From contig NZ_CP042968.1 of the NCBI RefSeq assembly GCF_001693515.2, positions 930,001 through 994,000 on the forward strand: DNA of 64,000 nt, written 5' to 3'. Positions within the stretch are counted from its first letter, which is position 1. Each line of letters begins with the position of its first letter. Positions 2,088 to 9,393 of the stretch are shown here, piece by piece. The notes below the pieces were generated by a model. It was not told the DNA's origin, searched no databases, and was given only the letters and a program-made list of their open reading frames with translations. The position numbers and the translations under genes are program-made. This DNA comes from Bradyrhizobium paxllaeri (GTDB taxonomy: Bacteria > Pseudomonadota > Alphaproteobacteria > Rhizobiales > Xanthobacteraceae).

Positions 2088-3032
2088 CTACGGCGCCACC
2101 AGCTCCACCCGTCGGTTCAGCGCGCGGCCGGCCTCGGTGGCGTTGGAGCCGGCCGGCGCCAGCAGTCCGACACCCGCGGTGCGCAGCCGCGGCGCACCGA
2201 TGCCGTAGTTCTTCACCAGCTCGGCGGCGATCGCCTCGGCGCGGCGTCGCGACAGATCGAGATTGTAGGCGAAGGGCCCCTGGTTGTCGGTGTGGCCGAC
2301 AATGAAGACGGTGAGCCCGACCTGAGCGGTCAGCAGCTTCGCGATCTGCTCGAGGGTGGGGCGGCTTTCGGGCTTCACCTCGGCCCTGTCGGTATCGAAA
2401 TAGATCCCGTAGAGCGCGATGCGGCCGGTCTCGCGGAGACCCTTGGCCATGACGGCAGCATCCACCATCTTGTTCTCGATCGCGACTGGCACGGCGATGA
2501 CGAGCTGCGCGTAGGTATCGCGGTTGTTCTCGCTGACGATGAGGCTGACAAAAGTCTCGCGGCCGCCGTCCACCTTGCGTCCGGCAAAATAGCGGTAGTT
2601 GAACCCGTCCACCCACATCTGCGGGATCGGCAGCGCGTCGACCGCTTCCGAGAAGGGAATGCCGCCGCAGGCGTCGGTGTCGCAGGCAAGCAGCGTTTCG
2701 AATCCAGCCTTCGCCAATTGCGTCTCGAAATTGCGCGACACTTCCAGGATCGACGGGCCGGGATTGGTGCGATAGGCGATGCGGGTGATGCGGCCTTCCA
2801 GCCGCCGCGCATCGGTGGGCTGGCCGTCCTTGAACGCAGCCCCTTGCATCCGCGCCGCATCAAAATCTTTCACCTGGTATCCTGTGATGACGCTGCCGCC
2901 GAAACGGCCGATGCCGGGATAATCTTTTGCGCCGACCACGTCGCGCGTCTGCGCGTCGGCGTTCGTCGTCGCGCCAAGCGACATCGCGAGCAGCAGGAGG
3001 ATCGGCCTGAACAGAGTGCGCCGTAAGCCCAT
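2088..3032 (-). CDS. OmpA-family protein with N-terminal DUF4892-like region
   Basis: A 314-residue exported protein. After a signal peptide (LFRPILLLLAMSLGATTNADA) comes a ~170-residue region that resembles DUF4892 proteins (ends in a YFAGRK...VSLIVSEN segment), then a peptidoglycan-binding OmpA C-domain with the hallmark GHTDNQGPFAYNLDLSRRRA. Such proteins anchor the outer membrane to murein. Start 3032 was taken because the signal peptide begins there; an upstream extension to 3137 has no signal sequence. It heads a likely two-gene unit with the GH79-like hydrolase. Confidence 0.8.
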   Translation of the reverse strand: MGLRRTLFRPILLLLAMSLGATTNADAQTRDVVGAKDYPGIGRFGGSVITGYQVKDFDAARMQGAAFKDGQPTDARRLEGRITRIAYRTNPGPSILEVSRNFETQLAKAGFETLLACDTDACGGIPFSEAVDALPIPQMWVDGFNYRYFAGRKVDGGRETFVSLIVSENNRDTYAQLVIAVPVAIENKMVDAAVMAKGLRETGRIALYGIYFDTDRAEVKPESRPTLEQIAKLLTAQVGLTVFIVGHTDNQGPFAYNLDLSRRRAEAIAAELVKNYGIGAPRLRTAGVGLLAPAGSNATEAGRALNRRVELVAP

Positions 3033-3251
3033 GAGAAATCCATTTGTTCGAGGAACGATCGGGGGAAGGGGCAGGACGAAGTATGACTTGTAAAGGTAGC
3101 ACCGGCAGATCAACCGGTTCAAATTAGTCGCAATCATGGCCGTTTTCGGGGAGTTTCTGCCCCCGCGTTTTGCCGTAACCCTCGAAGCGCGGCCAAGGAC
3201 GTGCTAGAAGCCGATGCTTATTTGCAGTGCTCTCTCAGGAACGGCTTTTCC

Positions 3252-4043
3252 ATGCTCCGCATCGCATTTGCTTTCAGCGCCACCCTGGCAATGTTCGCAT
3301 GCTTCAACTCCCAATCCCACGCCGCGCAATGCGGCAGCTCGTCCGGCGGTTACGAATCCTGGAAACAGCAATTCGCCGGCGAAGCGCGCGCCAAGGGCGT
3401 CAGCGCCTCGACCATCCAGGCCCTGATGGCGACGAATTATGCGCAGGCGACCATCAATGCCGATCGCGGCCAGCGCAGTTTCAGTCTCTCGCTCGATGCG
3501 TTTCTCGCCAAGCGCGGCGCCACTACCATCGTCGCGAAAGGGCGGCAGTTGAAGCGCTCGCAGGGCGCACTGTTCGCCTCGATTCAGGAGCGCTATGGCG
3601 TGCCGCCGGGGCCGCTGCTGGCGATCTGGGGCATGGAGACCGGGTTCGGTAGCCAGCGCGGCAACCAGAACATGCTCGCCTCGATCGCGACGCTCGCCTA
3701 TGACTGCCGGCGCTCGGCTTATTTCACCGAGCACCTTTACGCGGCGCTGCAGCTGATCGATCGCGGCGCGCTGTCGCCGAGCCAGCGCGGCTCGATGCAT
3801 GGCGAGGTCGGGCAGACGCAGTTCATGCCGAAGGCGATCCTGGCTTACGGCACCGGAAATCTCGAAAACTCGGCGAATGCGCTGATGTCGACCGCGAACT
3901 TCCTGAAGGCGCATGGCTGGCGCGCCGGCGCGGGCTATCAGCCCGGCGAGCCGAACTTTGCCGCCATCCAGGCCTGGAATGCCGCCGGTGTCTATCAGAA
4001 GGCGATCGCACTGATGGGACGCCAGATCGACGGCGGCGAATGA
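3252..4043 (+). CDS. MltB-like lytic murein transglycosylase (first copy)
   Basis: A 263-residue secreted enzyme that would cleave the MurNAc-GlcNAc bond of peptidoglycan to a 1,6-anhydro product. A signal peptide (MLRIAFAFSATLAMFACF, ending in SHA) is followed by an SLT_2-type fold; AIWGMETGFG carries the catalytic Glu, and GEVGQTQFMP is the conserved substrate-groove motif. No C-terminal peptidoglycan-binding domain is present, as in many short rhizobial members. Start chosen at the signal peptide; AGGA lies upstream. A paralogue lies at 7610, the other side of the RiPP operon. Confidence 0.88.
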   Translation: MLRIAFAFSATLAMFACFNSQSHAAQCGSSSGGYESWKQQFAGEARAKGVSASTIQALMATNYAQATINADRGQRSFSLSLDAFLAKRGATTIVAKGRQLKRSQGALFASIQERYGVPPGPLLAIWGMETGFGSQRGNQNMLASIATLAYDCRRSAYFTEHLYAALQLIDRGALSPSQRGSMHGEVGQTQFMPKAILAYGTGNLENSANALMSTANFLKAHGWRAGAGYQPGEPNFAAIQAWNAAGVYQKAIALMGRQIDGGE

Positions 4044-4057
4044 GGGCAGATCCGGCA

Positions 4058-4081
4058 TGTCAGGCCGGCTGGCCTGACATC
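4058..4081. terminator. bidirectional hairpin between convergent genes
   Basis: A perfect 10-bp stem (ATGTCAGGCC / GGCCTGACAT) with a GGCT loop lies between the stop of the transglycosylase and the stop of the membrane-protein gene. No U-tract follows on either side, so it would be a weak or Rho-assisted terminator serving both strands. Confidence 0.6.
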
Positions 4082-4094
4082 GCTCTGTACACCC

Positions 4095-5957
4095 TCACCG
4101 CATCGCGCCGGCGACCCTCTGCCTTGTGTTGCTCACAAATAGTGTGAGTTGCTGCAGTCCGTTGTCCTCGGAAAGCACGTCGAGCGGGCGCTTGCCGTCG
4201 AGCTTGTCGCTGCGCGCATTGAGCCATTCACTGAACTGCTGGATATCATGGAAATACTGGCGGACTGCGTTTCGCAGGACGGTGATCTTGTCCGGCAAGT
4301 ATGATTCCTGTACATCCCAATGCCGCCGGATGCCTTTGGGCAACATGGCGCCAAGCACGAAGCCGAGCCCGCCATAGAGCACAATGAGAAATTCCCGGTA
4401 TTCGATGCTGATGTTGCTGAACGTCAACTCGGCCGCAAGCATGGCTGCAATAGTCATCGCGGAGGCCTGCAGCCCGCCCGATAATGCCTGCTCGAAGCGG
4501 GTGCCCGCGGGACGATCAAGCGTATAGGACGTCATGACGCCACAGATCGCCGGAACGGTCGCCCACGCCAACTGCGGAGAGAAATATTGCCAGAGCAACT
4601 GCACCTGCGTGACCGTCGGGTGGTCGCCGTTGATTGTGGAAAGCGCCGCGATGAGGTTGGGACTGTACAGTACGAGATTCAGGAGCAAAGACGTAATCCA
4701 GCACTTGAGGAAGATCTGGACGTAGGCCTCCGCGCGGCCGTTACCGGATTCGGCGTAGTATGCATTTCGGCCGAGGAGTTTCGCGCGCAAGGCGAGGGAC
4801 TGGCCGATCGCAAAAATATGGACGACAAGAATTACCATCAGTAACTGCAGCACGTCGTCTGTGGTGGTCGGAATTTGCGTCTGCTCGGTCGTGCCCAGAA
4901 ACGTGTTGATCGCAAGCAGGCAGGCCGCAACAACCACGAATGCCGCAGCGCCGGTGGCCTTGAGGATCGGATCCCACGGGATTCTCTGGGCCGGCGGATA
5001 GGGGGACACAAAGCCGGCGGCGCTCAAGCGATCGAAAATCCGTCCATTGCCCCTTGCTGCGGTAACGGCGCCGGCGAATATGACGTAGAGCCACTCCAGA
5101 TTCTTGATCAGGTCGCGCTGGATGGTGAGAACAGCGCGCCGTCTGTCCAGCGCCTCGGGCGCCGGCAAGTCGGACAAGCGTGCGTAAATCGCCAGCAGAT
5201 TGGTGCCGACGTTCTGTATCTCCGCGCGGTACTTCCGGAATATTTCCAGATCGAGATTGCCGGCCAAATCTTTCGAGTCGTCGAAACTGGCATCGCCCGC
5301 CAAGGTCGCCGCACGGGCATACAGCAGCACCACCCGATCGAACGTGGCGCAAGCGCTTTTCAGATCCGGAGCAGGTGACGCAGGCCGGTCCAGGTCGATT
5401 GCATTCCAGGCGTCGGCAAGCTTGTCCGGCTGCAAATCCATGTCGGAGAAGCGCATATAGTTCAGGAGCCGATCGATGTTTTTCGGGATGTAGGCCATTC
5501 GGTGCGCGAAACCGCGAATGCTGATTTCGAAATCCAGGGCTTTCGGCAAATTGGGGTTGAGACCCACGATGTAGAAAGCGACCAGAATCGGAAAGGTCGG
5601 ATAGTTCTGCAATGAGGTTTCGGCCGCCGGTGATGCCGTCGGCATTTCGCTCTGCGTAGCGGCTGCGGTGACTGCCTTCAGTATCTGAAAGAATGGTCCC
5701 GGCCCGATGATCGAGGTGGCCAGAAAGATCGTCATCATCAGGCCGAAATAGATCGAGTAGCCGGTCAGATATTCGCTTGGTGTAGTCTGATAGCGCAGAA
5801 TGACGAATTTCCATGGGCAATTGTCGTCATTGCCGGCAATCGATTTTCCAAACTGATCCAGGCAAAACTTGTGGATCACAAAAGTACCAACGAGAAGGCC
5901 CAGTATAAATACCAGTAGGGCGTTGCCTGTCGGAATGGTCGGCAGATAGGCGTTCAT
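4095..5957 (-). CDS. polytopic membrane protein of the RiPP operon, unknown function
   Basis: A 620-residue protein I do not recognise. Roughly eight or nine hydrophobic segments can be seen: near residues 12-30, 65-85, 123-138, then after a large soluble insert (~150-330), near 334-355, 370-390, 415-435, 460-480, 495-515 and 525-545. The last 44 residues are soluble and contain EWLN, LDGKRPLDVL and a following G, a spacing that recalls the C-terminal toxin-binding domain of MbcA/ParS/Xre antitoxins (WL...LxGxxPLxxL...G). Its start is 7 bases after the maturase stop, so it is translationally linked. It could be an exporter, a receptor or an immunity protein; no ATPase or peptidase motif is visible. 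Confidence 0.78.
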   Translation of the reverse strand: MNAYLPTIPTGNALLVFILGLLVGTFVIHKFCLDQFGKSIAGNDDNCPWKFVILRYQTTPSEYLTGYSIYFGLMMTIFLATSIIGPGPFFQILKAVTAAATQSEMPTASPAAETSLQNYPTFPILVAFYIVGLNPNLPKALDFEISIRGFAHRMAYIPKNIDRLLNYMRFSDMDLQPDKLADAWNAIDLDRPASPAPDLKSACATFDRVVLLYARAATLAGDASFDDSKDLAGNLDLEIFRKYRAEIQNVGTNLLAIYARLSDLPAPEALDRRRAVLTIQRDLIKNLEWLYVIFAGAVTAARGNGRIFDRLSAAGFVSPYPPAQRIPWDPILKATGAAAFVVVAACLLAINTFLGTTEQTQIPTTTDDVLQLLMVILVVHIFAIGQSLALRAKLLGRNAYYAESGNGRAEAYVQIFLKCWITSLLLNLVLYSPNLIAALSTINGDHPTVTQVQLLWQYFSPQLAWATVPAICGVMTSYTLDRPAGTRFEQALSGGLQASAMTIAAMLAAELTFSNISIEYREFLIVLYGGLGFVLGAMLPKGIRRHWDVQESYLPDKITVLRNAVRQYFHDIQQFSEWLNARSDKLDGKRPLDVLSEDNGLQQLTLFVSNTRQRVAGAMR

Positions 5958-5964
5958 GGCACCC

Positions 5965-7116
5965 TCACATCGTCAAGGACACCTCGAAGTGATTGTCCCG
6001 CGCGTTCGTGAGCTGCAGGCACACGTCCACCCAGGCCTTCTTGGTGAATGCGCAATAATTTGTTGCGGTCGCCCGCATCGAACCTTTTTCGGATAATTTA
6101 TTGACTGGCGCACCGCCGCCGCAGTGCTCAAAATACTCACACTCGCTGGCACAGTTCGTAACGCCGTCGCTGATTTCCCGATACGCCGATATAAACCGAT
6201 CGTCGGAAAGGATGTCTCTCAGCTCCTTGCAATGATGAACGTTGCCAAAGATGAAGCGCTGCCGTTGCGGGGCGTTCAGCGCCAGCAGCTCGGGAGAAAA
6301 GGTGCTGATATCGCCATTGTACGCGATATTCAGCATGCGTAGGGGAATGACCTGATCGTTATCCTCGGGTACTCCCGCGATCAGCGATGCGATGGTGCGC
6401 TGAAAGTCCCGCAGTACAACCGGCCCGTCGCCCTCTTGCGCCGCCGCCCGCAGCACGTCGCTGATAAAGCGCTCGAACGTCTCGCGGCTGCCGTTCTCGT
6501 AAAGCGACGAATGCGTGTTCTGTGCTTCCAGCTCCTCGATGTTCAGTCCGATCGCCGCAGGGCCGAAGCGCCGATAGTAATCGACAAGCTCTGAGCCGCG
6601 GGAAAGGGTCGGCGCTGTCACGACACCGATAAAGTGAAATGGATAGCCTCGCGCCTGCAATTTCGCGATACCGGCGAGAGCGCGTTCGTGGCTGCCGGAC
6701 CCATTCCGGTATTTCCGATTCAGGTCATGCAGGTCGCGCGGGCCGTCCAGGCTGATCCCGACGGTGATGTTCTGCTGCTCGAACAGATCGATAAAGGCGT
6801 CGTCGATCAAGGTGCCGTTGGTCTGAATTCCGTAGTGGACCGCGACATCCTGCGGGCGCCGGCGCTCGATGATCTCTATCGCCTGCCTATAGTAGGCGGG
6901 CGGCATCGTCAGGGGCTCGCCGGCATGCCAGACAATATCGAGCTCGTGCTTGAGCAGCGGCCGGTCGAAAATCAATCGTGCAACTTCCTCGACCGTAGCG
7001 AGCGTCATCGTGTGGCGAGGATTGGCGCGATCCGGCAAGTAGCAATAGGCGCAATCGATGTTACAAAATTCCGTCGATTGCAGCACTACCAACCCAAGAG
7101 GACCAGCCGCCAGCAT
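5965..7116 (-). CDS. radical SAM/SPASM peptide maturase, GrrM-like cyclophane-forming
   Basis: A 383-residue enzyme. The N-terminal CNIDCAYCY is the CxxxCxxC motif for the SAM-binding 4Fe-4S cluster. The C-terminal SPASM region shows CASECEYFEHCGGG followed by NYCAF, coordinating auxiliary clusters; the string CGGGAPVNKLSEKGS is characteristic of the GrrM maturases of Gly-rich-repeat RiPP systems, whose relatives join an aromatic side chain to the beta-carbon two residues downstream. The start at 7116 is favoured: AGAGG, formed by the stop region of the precursor gene, lies five bases upstream. It follows the precursor by 8 bases. Substrate is presumably the adjacent 89-aa peptide. Confidence 0.88.
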   Translation of the reverse strand: MLAAGPLGLVVLQSTEFCNIDCAYCYLPDRANPRHTMTLATVEEVARLIFDRPLLKHELDIVWHAGEPLTMPPAYYRQAIEIIERRRPQDVAVHYGIQTNGTLIDDAFIDLFEQQNITVGISLDGPRDLHDLNRKYRNGSGSHERALAGIAKLQARGYPFHFIGVVTAPTLSRGSELVDYYRRFGPAAIGLNIEELEAQNTHSSLYENGSRETFERFISDVLRAAAQEGDGPVVLRDFQRTIASLIAGVPEDNDQVIPLRMLNIAYNGDISTFSPELLALNAPQRQRFIFGNVHHCKELRDILSDDRFISAYREISDGVTNCASECEYFEHCGGGAPVNKLSEKGSMRATATNYCAFTKKAWVDVCLQLTNARDNHFEVSLTM

Positions 7117-7124
7117 TGGAGCCT

Positions 7125-7394
7125 CTAACAATTTCTCCAGGAGCCACGCATGCAATTATTGAAGTTGAAGAACTGGACAATATTGTTGATCTTGCCGCTT
7201 GTCGCATCATGATCGCCCGGCGAGGTCGCGCGAAGCTTTTCCCGCAATCGTTCAACGCGAAGCGAAAGCAGCTCGGGGAACGGATTGGTTTGTTCAGCAG
7301 CATCGCGATAGATGCTGCCATCGGCCGAAACGGAAAGGCACAAAACCGCTCCAGAAGCGGTGACGGCCGCCAGTAGTCTTCGTTTCGATTTCAT
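7125..7394 (-). CDS. RiPP precursor peptide with three aromatic-X-Asn triplets
   Basis: An 89-residue peptide beginning at ATG 7394 after GGGGG. The first ~25 residues look like a Sec signal peptide (MKSKRRLLAAVTASGAVLCL, then SVSA). A charged amphipathic stretch (LLSLRVERLREKLRA) follows, similar in style to GrrA leaders. The C-terminal 20 residues, INNIVQFFNFNNCMRGSWRN then Cys, hold three non-overlapping aromatic-X-Asn triplets: F75-F76-N77, F78-N79-N80 and W86-R87-N88, plus Cys81 and Cys89. This is the pattern expected of a three-residue-cyclophane (triceptide) core, but it lacks the Gly-rich repeats of classic GrrA. It directly precedes the maturase. Confidence 0.8.
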   Translation of the reverse strand: MKSKRRLLAAVTASGAVLCLSVSADGSIYRDAAEQTNPFPELLSLRVERLREKLRATSPGDHDATSGKINNIVQFFNFNNCMRGSWRNC

Positions 7395-7451
7395 GGCAAC
7401 CCCCAGCACGTTGAGGTTGCCTGACAGGCTATCTCGGATTGCGCGTTGCGT

Positions 7452-7475
7452 GCAAGTGACGTATTTCACACTTGC
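7452..7475. promoter_or_regulatory. inverted repeat upstream of RiPP operon
   Basis: GCAAGTG and CACTTGC, perfect 7-bp arms around a 10-bp spacer, lie 58-81 bases upstream of the precursor start. On the minus strand, TTGCAC overlaps one arm and a GATAGC follows after 16 bases, a weak promoter-like pair. The position suits an operator, but the divergent transglycosylase gene could equally use it. Confidence 0.35.
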
Positions 7476-7609
7476 GCATTTCGCTACCGTCTTTTCTTGT
7501 CGTTGCTGACGTCGGTATCGGCTTATGTTTCGAACATGGTGTCTCGAACGCGGCCGATGCTACAGTTGAGTCGAGAGCAAATCTGCTGCTCGGAAGGAAA
7601 CTGTCCCAT

Positions 7610-8431
7610 ATGCCCATCGGCCGCATCACCTTGGCGCTCTGCGCTCCCATTCTTACCCTGCTGCTATCTTCGACCCCCACCTACGCCGCCCGCTGCGGCG
7701 GCGATTTCAACACCTTCGTGTCGGCGATGTCGCAGGAGGCGGCAGCGGCCGGCGTCTCGCAGTCGGTGATCAGCCAGTCGTTTGCCGGCGTCACGCAGGA
7801 TCCGGCGGTGCTCGCCTTCGACCGCCGGCAGCGCGGCACCTTCAACAAGTCGTTCGAGCAATATGTCTCGACCCGCGTCGGGCCCGGGCGGATCAATATC
7901 GGCCGGCAGATGCTGCAGCGGCACGGCTCGCTGCTTTCGCGCATCGAGCAGAAGTTCGGCGTGCCGCCGGAGATCGTGGTCGCGATCTGGGGGCTGGAGA
8001 GCGATTTCGGCAAGGGCGATGTCGGCAAGCTGCCGGTGATCCGCACGCTCGCCACCATGGCCCATGATTGCCGCCGCACCGAACTGTTCCAGGGCGAGCT
8101 GCTCGCTGCGCTCAAGATCGTGCAGCGCGGCGATCTGCCCTTGCGCGACCTGATCGGCGCCTTCGCCGGCGAGATCGGCCAGACGCAATTTCTGCCGTCG
8201 TCCTACATCAAATACGGCGTCGATTTCGACGGCAACGGCCACGTCGATCTGCGCCACAGCGTGCCTGACGTGCTCGCCTCCACGGCGAATTTGCTGCACG
8301 TCTCCGGCTTCAAGGGCGGCGCGCCCTACGGCGAGGGCACCGCGAATTTCGAAGCGATGCGCGAGTGGAACAGGGCTACGGTCTACCGCAAGACGATCGG
8401 GTATTTCGCGGATCGATTGGTTGGGCGCTGA
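7610..8431 (+). CDS. MltB-like lytic murein transglycosylase (second copy)
   Basis: A 273-residue paralogue of the enzyme at 3252. Signal peptide MPIGRITLALCAPILTLLLS ending in TYA, then the SLT_2 domain with catalytic Glu in AIWGLESDFG and the groove motif GEIGQTQFLP. It would cleave periplasmic murein. The start at 7610 is chosen because the signal peptide begins there and AAGGA lies upstream; longer frames to 7472 add no recognisable sequence. It is transcribed away from the RiPP operon, so the two share the 7395-7609 intergenic region. Confidence 0.88.
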   Translation: MPIGRITLALCAPILTLLLSSTPTYAARCGGDFNTFVSAMSQEAAAAGVSQSVISQSFAGVTQDPAVLAFDRRQRGTFNKSFEQYVSTRVGPGRINIGRQMLQRHGSLLSRIEQKFGVPPEIVVAIWGLESDFGKGDVGKLPVIRTLATMAHDCRRTELFQGELLAALKIVQRGDLPLRDLIGAFAGEIGQTQFLPSSYIKYGVDFDGNGHVDLRHSVPDVLASTANLLHVSGFKGGAPYGEGTANFEAMREWNRATVYRKTIGYFADRLVGR

Positions 8432-8435
8432 GGTG

Positions 8436-8530
8436 CGTAGGGTGGGCAAAGGCGCGTCAGCGCCGTGCCCACCATCCATCACCGATCGCGCTGCTCGATG
8501 GTGGGCACGCTTCGCTTTGCCCACCCTACG
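8436..8530. repeat. palindromic dispersed repeat (GTAGGGTGGGCAAAG type)
   Basis: CGTAGGGTGGGCAAAG at 8436-8451 is repeated exactly in inverted form at 8515-8530, and GTGCCCACCATC/GATGGTGGGCAC forms an inner stem. The whole unit can fold into a long cruciform. From memory this family is abundant between genes in Bradyrhizobium. Here it separates two convergent genes and probably ends both transcripts. Confidence 0.85.
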
Positions 8531-8544
8531 GCTCCGTCCATATC

Positions 8545-9393
8545 CTACGGGCGGGACCCTTGCCCCGACATCCGCTCGATCCGCTTCGCGAGCACCTTCC
8601 AATACGTCGCCGGCCGAAACCGCTGCAGCAGATCCATGAGCCATGCGTCGTTGCCGATCAGTATTCGCGGCTGGTTTTTCTCGATGCCGGCGATGATGCG
8701 TTGCGCGGCAATCGGCGGCGTCGTTTTCGCGATCGCGTCGAAACGATCGATCGATTCCGCGCGTCGCGCATTGTCGGTGATGCCAGATCCAGTGCGGGAG
8801 TTGCGCACGATGTTGGTCAGCACGCCGCCGGGATGCACCACCGAGAGCTTTACCGGGCTGTTGGCCATCGCAAGCTCATGCCGCAGGCTCTCCGAAAAGC
8901 CGCGCACCGCGAATTTCGCGGCCGCATAGGCGGTCTGGCCCGGCGGGGCGATGATGCCGAAGATCGAGGACAGGTTGACGATATGCGCCTCGCGCTGTTT
9001 CGACAGATGCGGCAGGAAGGCGCGGGTGCCGTGCACGACGCCCCAGAAATTGATGTTGATCAGCCATTCCATCTGCGCCTGGTCGACCTCGTTGAAGCTG
9101 CCCATCAGCGCAACGCCGGCATTGTTGATGACGATGTTGAGCGAGGGGTGCGCCGCGATCGCCGCGCTGGCAAATTCCTGGATCTGGGCGGGCTCGCCGA
9201 CATCGACACGATGGGTCGAGATGTTGCGCTTGCTGGTCTTGCCGATCTCGGCGGCGCCTTCGAACAAGCCGGCCTCGTCGCGGTCGGCGAGTGCGAGGTC
9301 GCAGCCGCGCGCGGCGAGCTCGAACGCGAGCGCGCGGCCGATGCCGCTGGCGGCGCCGGTTATCGCGGCCGCGCTTCCGGATATCGCAGTCAT
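8545..9393 (-). CDS. short-chain dehydrogenase/reductase (SDR)
   Basis: A 282-residue classical SDR. The cofactor motif is TGAASGIG near residue 13, the NNAG motif is present, and the catalytic pair is in YAAAK with an upstream serine (NLSSIFG). The C-terminal ~40 residues after the Rossmann core contain a basic amphipathic stretch (RFRPATYWKVLAKRIERM), common in membrane-associated SDRs of the Rv-type acyl/steroid group. Substrate unknown. Single gene, transcribed toward the repeat at 8436. Confidence 0.85.
   Translation of the reverse strand: MTAISGSAAAITGAASGIGRALAFELAARGCDLALADRDEAGLFEGAAEIGKTSKRNISTHRVDVGEPAQIQEFASAAIAAHPSLNIVINNAGVALMGSFNEVDQAQMEWLININFWGVVHGTRAFLPHLSKQREAHIVNLSSIFGIIAPPGQTAYAAAKFAVRGFSESLRHELAMANSPVKLSVVHPGGVLTNIVRNSRTGSGITDNARRAESIDRFDAIAKTTPPIAAQRIIAGIEKNQPRILIGNDAWLMDLLQRFRPATYWKVLAKRIERMSGQGSRP

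Follow-up and report, generated by a model that had tools for sequence, protein, structure and literature searches.

We found that the window, a 64,000-nucleotide stretch of the Bradyrhizobium paxllaeri genome (G000; one contig, 8.38 Mb), carries a cassette of three close-set minus-strand genes, encoding a precursor peptide, a radical SAM/SPASM maturase and a membrane protein (MP). Judged from its sequence, this is probably a horizontally gained RiPP cassette, the product of which would be a cyclophane-ringed, exported and disulfide-closed peptide with MP as its cognate membrane protein. By the same evidence, the system works like a triceptide system, and MP is a putative new partner family for systems of the GrrM/triceptide kind. 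The features of the locus are as follows.

7125..7394, minus strand: precursor peptide gene, 89 aa, stop included (sequence and homologs)
7323..7394, minus strand: Sec-like N-terminus, residues 1–24, with KSKRR, a hydrophobic run and V-S-A before D25 (inspection)
7242..7268, minus strand: leader segment LSLRVERLR, similar to a motif of other GrrM precursors (pattern made post hoc)
7173..7181, minus strand: IVQ directly ahead of the core; a similar [VAST]Q precedes most related cores (alignment counts)
7164..7172, minus strand: triplet 1, F75-F76-N77 (conservation count)
7155..7163, minus strand: triplet 2, F78-N79-N80 (conservation count)
7152..7154, minus strand: Cys81, first Cys of the C-x7-C pair (conservation)
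7131..7139, minus strand: triplet 3, W86-R87-N88, not universal (conservation)
7128..7130, minus strand: Cys89, second Cys and final residue of the precursor (conservation)
5965..7116, minus strand: GrrM/OscB-family radical SAM/SPASM maturase, likely ATG at 7116 (TIGR04261, Cys columns)
4095..5957, minus strand: MP, 620-aa multipass membrane protein with a DUF2384-like domain at about residues 559–604 (Pfam scan, hydropathy, homologs)
4048..7660, no strand: insertion, approximate extent, 57.3% GC (empty-site comparison, GC)
3201..4043, plus strand: left flanking lytic transglycosylase, outside the cassette (family models, relatives' loci)
7610..8431, plus strand: right flanking lytic transglycosylase, outside the cassette (family models, relatives' loci)

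The C-terminus of the precursor reads FFN-FNN-C-MRGS-WRN-C, and the peptide ends ...NIVQFFNFNNCMRGSWRNC. The maturase frame is open from a TTG at 7155 down to 5965 on the minus strand and contains CGGGAPVNKLSE. From its sequence context, the ATG at 7116 is a likelier start than this TTG; it lies 8 nt past the precursor TAG, has AGAGG ahead of it and gives a protein of 383 aa. The gap between the maturase stop and the MP start is 7 nt. A scan for promoters and terminators gave matches no commoner than in shuffled sequence. The first-pass annotation had proposed a secreted-type precursor paired with a maturase, and this pair is real, with the precursor at 7394–7125, the maturase adjoining it and conservation across 122 precursors. 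That annotation did not include the third gene, its relatives in genomes without GrrM, or the insertion.

The cassette is, by comparison of sequences, a low-GC insertion between two lytic-transglycosylase genes. In relatives, the flanking lytic-transglycosylase paralogs are adjacent without a cassette in 12 of 28 loci (L106–L111 and L113–L118; the G000 and G065 loci aside), with a gap of 0.2–0.3 kb in 11 and 0.9 kb in one, while at the other 16 loci no left paralog lies within the 1.5 kb examined. When seven empty sites were compared with the window, DNA similarity stopped at 4036–4047 and restarted at 7660–7676. The GC content of 4048–7660 is 57.3%, against 63.6% for the whole window, and of 302 windows each 3.6 kb long (200-nt steps), not one has a GC content so low. 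Bradyrhizobium lablabi has the same insertion; in G041 the right flank lies beside the cassette and the left does not, and in G234 a Cys-framed cassette sits elsewhere and the window's site is empty. Around the relatives' empty site, the genes found at 2088–9393 of the window are kept, namely an OmpA-like gene (by inspection), the two lytic transglycosylases and a short-chain dehydrogenase-like gene.

By the curated model, the maturase belongs to the GrrM/OscB family: it scored 347.8 bits against TIGR04261 (cut-off 310), the sole pass among the 25 NCBIfam models listed. The earlier description of the enzyme as GrrM-like is thus borne out, since the models for XyeB (93 bits, cut-off 450), FxsB (112.5, cut-off 370), YhhB (135.6, cut-off 445), AmcB (274, cut-off 425) and DarE (87.3, cut-off 650) all scored below their cut-offs. 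Seven cysteine columns, including the radical SAM CxxxCxxC and further SPASM cysteines, are present in 32/32 aligned GrrM homologs. A sequence search of the PDB returned five rows, the best being an anaerobic sulfatase maturase (E 1.9e-18), with ChlB and two more relatives also present, and PADLOC reported a resemblance to viperins only (E 4e-10). The genome encodes another radical SAM/SPASM-like protein (L002, G000:C1:5842445-5843431), 26% identical, which was used as an outgroup only. OscB is reported to link C4 of Phe or C7 of Trp to the beta-carbon of an Asn (or Asp) at the i+2 position (PMC11002830).

The precursor matches no Pfam or NCBIfam family, and its relatives P0029, P0122 and P0138 match no NCBIfam family. 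A protein database search with the precursor gave 42 homologs, mostly on short contigs, and a profile search gave 270, from which 79 new precursors were taken among the 120 matches listed. The window precursor, the 42 database homologs and these 79, drawn from the matches listed, make up the 122 precursors counted below. We counted tail positions backward from the first Cys, with no motif demanded: position −1 is Asn in 120 of the 122 precursors, −3 is Phe in 119, −4 is Asn in 119 and −6 is Phe or Trp in 118. The middle positions of these triplets vary, with 12 kinds of residue at −2 and 7 at −5. A pattern of the form Q-(Ar-x-Asn)n ... C-x4-6-[Ar]-x-[NRK]-C, where n = 1 to 4, matches 118/122 precursors; this pattern was framed post hoc, tolerates as many as 5 additional residues ahead of the first Cys and itself demands Asn, so the evidence for the triplets is taken from the motif-free count. 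Because the pattern fits with n from 1 to 4, the length of the core changes in whole triplets, and P0093 is short by exactly one triplet. Conserved aromatic and Asn positions, variable middles and changes by whole triplets are together what would be expected of three-residue cyclophanes. Taken singly, the window's sequence is mildly unusual by chance (shuffles of the 20-residue tail hold at least three Ar-x-N in 3.4% of cases, and one of 283 Met-to-stop frames of 50–150 aa in the window has at least two), and the case therefore rests on conservation.

Conservation differs along the tail. Ahead of the last Cys, Trp is found in 116 of 121 precursors and Arg in 116 of 121, followed by N in 73, R in 40 and K in 8. 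The pattern misses four precursors. The tail of P0007 is identical to that of B. lablabi, which ends FNNCMRGRC and is 9 nt shorter, lacking the third triplet and retaining both cysteines; the maturase of B. lablabi is 91% identical to that of the window. P0028 has G in place of the W of the third triplet, the tail of P0043 (FNNCTGCR) lacks the triplet, and P0041 diverges from about residue 54 onward in a frameshift-like manner. Three precursors, P0007 (like B. lablabi), P0028 and P0043, have thus lost the third triplet, which is therefore either optional or not a substrate. The first-pass annotation had read three Ar-x-Asn triplets and had set their conservation among homologs as its refuting test; the first two pass (118–120 of 122), and the third does so only in part, being absent from three precursors and having N, R or K as its third residue.

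These differences could mean that only the first two triplets are cross-linked and that W-R-N is a conserved, unmodified part of the Cys-closed tail. The near-fixed Asn of the first block, set against the mixed third residue of the last triplet, and the three losses of that triplet point this way. Against it stand the presence of Trp in 116/121 precursors, the existence of GrrM-linked precursors with a lone WRN (G020, G050, G182 and G405), and the reported activity of XncB, which joins Trp to Arg or Asn (PMC11002830). We regard this alternative as rather unlikely, and from the sequences the maturase most likely makes two or three three-residue rings.

The two cysteines noted previously in the core are confirmed as Cys81 and Cys89, and the pair is conserved: all 122 precursors have two Cys in the tail, in 114 with a spacing of seven residues. 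That both persist even where the third triplet is lost might suggest that they are themselves substrates, the enzyme linking Cys sulfur in a ranthipeptide-like thioether instead of, or besides, the aromatic rings, and the maturase does give a weak match to PapB, the ranthipeptide maturase model (93 bits). This score is far below the cut-off of 340, whereas the GrrM/OscB model is passed; moreover, Cys pairs are also present in MP-linked peptides of genomes that gave no GrrM match, the cores of most other GrrM precursors read contain no Cys, and thioethers would leave the conserved aromatic and Asn positions unexplained. Thioether linkage is accordingly improbable, and cyclophane rings are the preferred reading.

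At the other end of the precursor, the N-terminus looks like a Sec signal on inspection (KSKRR, a hydrophobic run and V-S-A before D25), in agreement with the Sec-like leader claimed earlier. Between the window and G041, codons 1–25 show 16 synonymous changes and 1 non-synonymous change, the next 43 codons 9 and 18, and the last 21 codons 3 and 4; given the first of these ratios, constraint on the protein is strongest in the signal-like part. Such conservation exceeds what a simple signal would require, and the N-terminus may be a leader or recognition element instead of, or besides, a Sec signal. A leader motif of approximate form LxxR[VIL]xx[IVA][RQ] is present in 15 of 23 peptides examined (the window, two lone-WRN, five FPN, one FNQ, four HNW, G100 and G186). 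The peptides without it are those of the other Cys-framed clade (3), which counts against our best explanation, the GrrM-less ones (4) and the Gly-rich precursor of G319. The pattern was written after sight of the sequences, and shuffled bodies match it at 0.4 to 28%, so we keep it as a lead only.

The precursor is rare in its genus, with a strong match in 3 of 265 genomes. Among four weak genus matches, L006 and L008 are real, with GrrM adjacent, while L007 and L009 were rejected for internal stops. A contig scan with the precursor alignment gave one locus, in B. lablabi CCBAU 23086, and a class-wide profile search matched 2/385 genomes, the window's own and one weak match. Rarity, together with the triplet lost in B. 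lablabi, would fit a degenerate remnant without function. All three frames are, to the contrary, open in the window, B. lablabi and G041, the synonymous excess in the first 25 codons speaks for selection on the protein, and public homologs are many (the 42 and 270 above); decay of the cassette is the least credible of the alternatives that we weighed.

To place the cassette among its relatives, we assembled 32 GrrM loci, 21 from 265 genus genomes (E 1e-40) and 11 more from 248 family genomes (E 1e-60). Within the bacterial family, the neighbours of GrrM have core types FPN, FNQ, HNW, lone WRN and Cys-framed. Cys-framed precursors occur at nine of the 32 loci (the window, G065, G041, G134, G233, G251, G263, G318 and G234), that of G065 lacking the third triplet, and lone C-terminal WRN precursors at four (G020, G050, G182 and G405); 14 loci have other cores, and no precursor was recognised in five (G441, G133, G150, G393 and G247). 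An MP homolog follows GrrM at 9/9 Cys-framed (C-x7-C) loci and 4/4 lone-WRN loci (three MP profiles, E 0.01), and at 0/19 of the remaining loci, searched about 1.5 kb downstream and further in some at the same threshold. The MP frame of G134 breaks off near a contig end, and the contig of G318 ends inside MP. Profile-profile comparison of the three MP groups gave probabilities of 95.7, 97.8 and 99.7, which supports their homology.

When the MP label is mapped onto a tree of 30 maturases, 2 changes account for it, where shuffled labels need 10 on average, and the sharp split in MP occurrence is therefore partly kinship of the loci. The window's three Cys-framed maturases form a well-supported clade, as do the other six; a joint clade of all nine is neither shown nor rejected (p-AU 0.27), and we do not take it as established. 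The GrrM precursors of G100 and G186 have two terminal Cys with another spacing, without W-R-N and without MP; two Cys alone therefore do not predict MP, which counts against the best explanation. Their loci (L035 and L039, with L055 and L056) have long downstream frames with one or two hydrophobic segments that are not MP. The lone-WRN precursors (L028, L030, L032 and L010, in the order of G020, G050, G182 and G405) terminate in KIAQWRN or KIAQWRNR; each has an MP homolog further downstream and is perhaps a minimal one-ring substrate. A flavin monooxygenase-like gene, named by inspection, follows MP at L044, L046 and L047 (G233, G251 and G263).

Hydropathy at a lax threshold gave ten candidate hydrophobic segments in MP, along with a loop of 149 residues and a C-terminal part of 80. 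K and R gather on the side of the C-terminal end in the C-terminal half, so this end is probably cytoplasmic on hydropathy only. The C-terminal part resembles PF09722 (DUF2384, Xre/MbcA/ParS toxin-binding), which is precomputed in 27 of 45 MP homologs from a search that scored the best 8000 candidates by shared words. The window MP scored 20.4 bits and that of G041 24.1 against a gathering score of 24.5, which four of seven other MP-family members scanned passed. No transporter, channel or kinase family cut-off was passed; weak matches included an MFS model (E 0.12) and ABC2_membrane (E 0.061). A PDB sequence search with MP gave a weak match to a DUF2384 chain (8gug_B, E 0.15) and two kinesin rows that look like chance; plasmid records held no MP match, and PADLOC reported nothing for four MP proteins.

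Together, these features are consistent with the following mechanism. The GrrM-family enzyme would act on the precursor in the cytosol, linking the ring of each aromatic residue to the beta-carbon of the Asn that ends its triplet (F75–N77, F78–N80 and W86–N88), with 2 Da lost per ring. The Sec-like N-terminus would then take the peptide out of the cytoplasm, a Cys81–Cys89 disulfide would close the tail, and trimming near the conserved IVQ could leave a core of about 15 residues. MP would be the cognate partner of the finished peptide, its probably cytoplasmic end bearing a DUF2384-like protein-binding domain. The sequences show the order of the genes, the family of the enzyme, the conserved triplets and Cys pair, the co-occurrence with MP and the insertion. 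The enzymatic step is argued from family membership and conservation; the cross-links themselves, export, the disulfide, trimming and the role of MP are what we infer. From gene neighbourhood alone, MP is most likely an inner-membrane receptor, immunity or transport protein.

The closest known systems are GrrA/GrrM and OscA/OscB, which share the maturase family, aromatic-x-Asn substrate triplets and a precursor gene adjoining the maturase gene; the window, in contrast, has a short C-x7-C core without Gly-rich repeats, no GrrP gene, and MP as the third gene. As in triceptides, aromatic-x-X3 triplets adjoin a predicted three-residue cyclophane forming enzyme. As a GrrA/OscA1 peptide (TIGR04260, cut-off 31 bits) the precursor gave no match at E 1, nor did any sequence in the genome at E 0.001, and its C-terminal half contains no Gly-rich repeats. 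The previous separation from classic GrrA stands on these two points, and the contrast itself was too simple because the GrrM neighbours of this family carry many core types. GrrP (TIGR04262) gave six matches in the genome, none over the cut-off and none near 935–938 kb, and the same weak matches appeared in 9 of 14 control genomes. XncA/XncB, of the XyeB family, is alike in that Trp-x-Asn and Trp-x-Arg motifs are reported substrates of XncB (PMC11002830), and differs in that the window maturase falls far short of the XyeB model (93 bits, cut-off 450). Bufferins, which are Sec-exported and modified by MNIO enzymes, similarly have small Cys-containing precursors with a Sec-like N-terminus (PMC12452194); the cassette instead has a radical SAM enzyme and an aromatic-x-Asn motif, and no MNIO gene was noticed on inspection of its neighbours. 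The Xre/MbcA/ParS antitoxins (DUF2384, PF09722) resemble the MP family in its C-terminal domain, which in the window MP scores below the gathering score and ends a multipass membrane protein, and no RES toxin gene was noticed on inspection of the cassette. No Cys-framed GrrM precursor or this MP was recognised in the literature covered; the main triceptide papers lie outside that coverage, so this is no proof of absence.

MP also occurs apart from GrrM. The window family profile matched MP homologs in G184 (E 8.1e-14) and G222 (E 1.7e-8), both genomes without a GrrM match, and a second profile that included these two added G193 and G085. This second profile matched 54 genomes, many through the C-terminal domain only; 628–634-aa frames of G183, G058, G130, G059 and G046, and a frame of G173, were left out. 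About 40–50 nt upstream of MP, G184 and G193 encode a secreted-looking peptide ending VAQGRCFNG[KR]CY, and G222 and G085 one ending LAQTGCSSR[SG]GCR. The sites of these two-Cys mini-peptides are L063 (3062–3251), L064 (222 to 39 nt upstream of the gene at 8491–6728), L099 and L100. All four GrrM-less MP-linked peptides lack Ar-x-Asn triplets; within the MP-linked set, the triplets thus go with the GrrM loci and not with these four. Peptides of this kind beside MP, where no GrrM was found, lend some colour to the idea that the window precursor too is an ordinary secreted Cys peptide, left unmodified by the neighbouring enzyme. Their want of triplets, the 8-nt gap between precursor and maturase, and the retention of that pair at 9/9 loci all speak against the idea, and we consider it very improbable beside a precursor modified by its GrrM-family neighbour.

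Four distant MP homologs, in G011, G109, G127 and G216 (L097, L096, L095 and L078), have a cyclodipeptide-synthase-like gene directly after them. TIGR04539 matched in G127 (E 6.3e-11) and G011 (E 3.4e-8), both below the 45-bit cut-off, and PF16715 in G011 (E 1.2e-5) and G109 (E 0.0072), below the gathering score; G216 was assigned by similarity. A PDB search with the cyclodipeptide-synthase-like protein gave nothing at E 1. No such gene lies beside the MP homolog in about 10 kb of G068 and G260, nor in the short flank of G189, which is evidence against a general rule linking MP to cyclodipeptide synthases; the tally leaves out G180 and G077.

A tentative reading of these neighbourhoods, possible but less likely than not, puts MP at the heart of the system: a family of multipass inner-membrane proteins with DUF2384-like ends would each serve a tiny peptide product, which according to the locus is a Cys-framed cyclophane RiPP, a lone WRN triplet, an unmodified two-Cys mini-peptide or a cyclodipeptide. 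MP would then act in reception or self-protection, and GrrM would be an optional step that hardens the peptide. If true, soil bacteria would possess a means of small-peptide signalling or competition that has not been described. The chemistry of triceptides is documented, but to our knowledge few of them have an assigned function. MP tracks defined peptide types, with and without a maturase and also beside cyclodipeptide-synthase-like genes, and so offers a handle on function, and the occurrence of such loci both with and without GrrM makes it possible to gauge what the rings add over the Cys-only peptides found beside the MP family. Metagenome contigs of equal size (463477, 15602, 10639 and 3667) appear in both the precursor and the MP lists, which suggests that precursor and MP lie on shared contigs there too.
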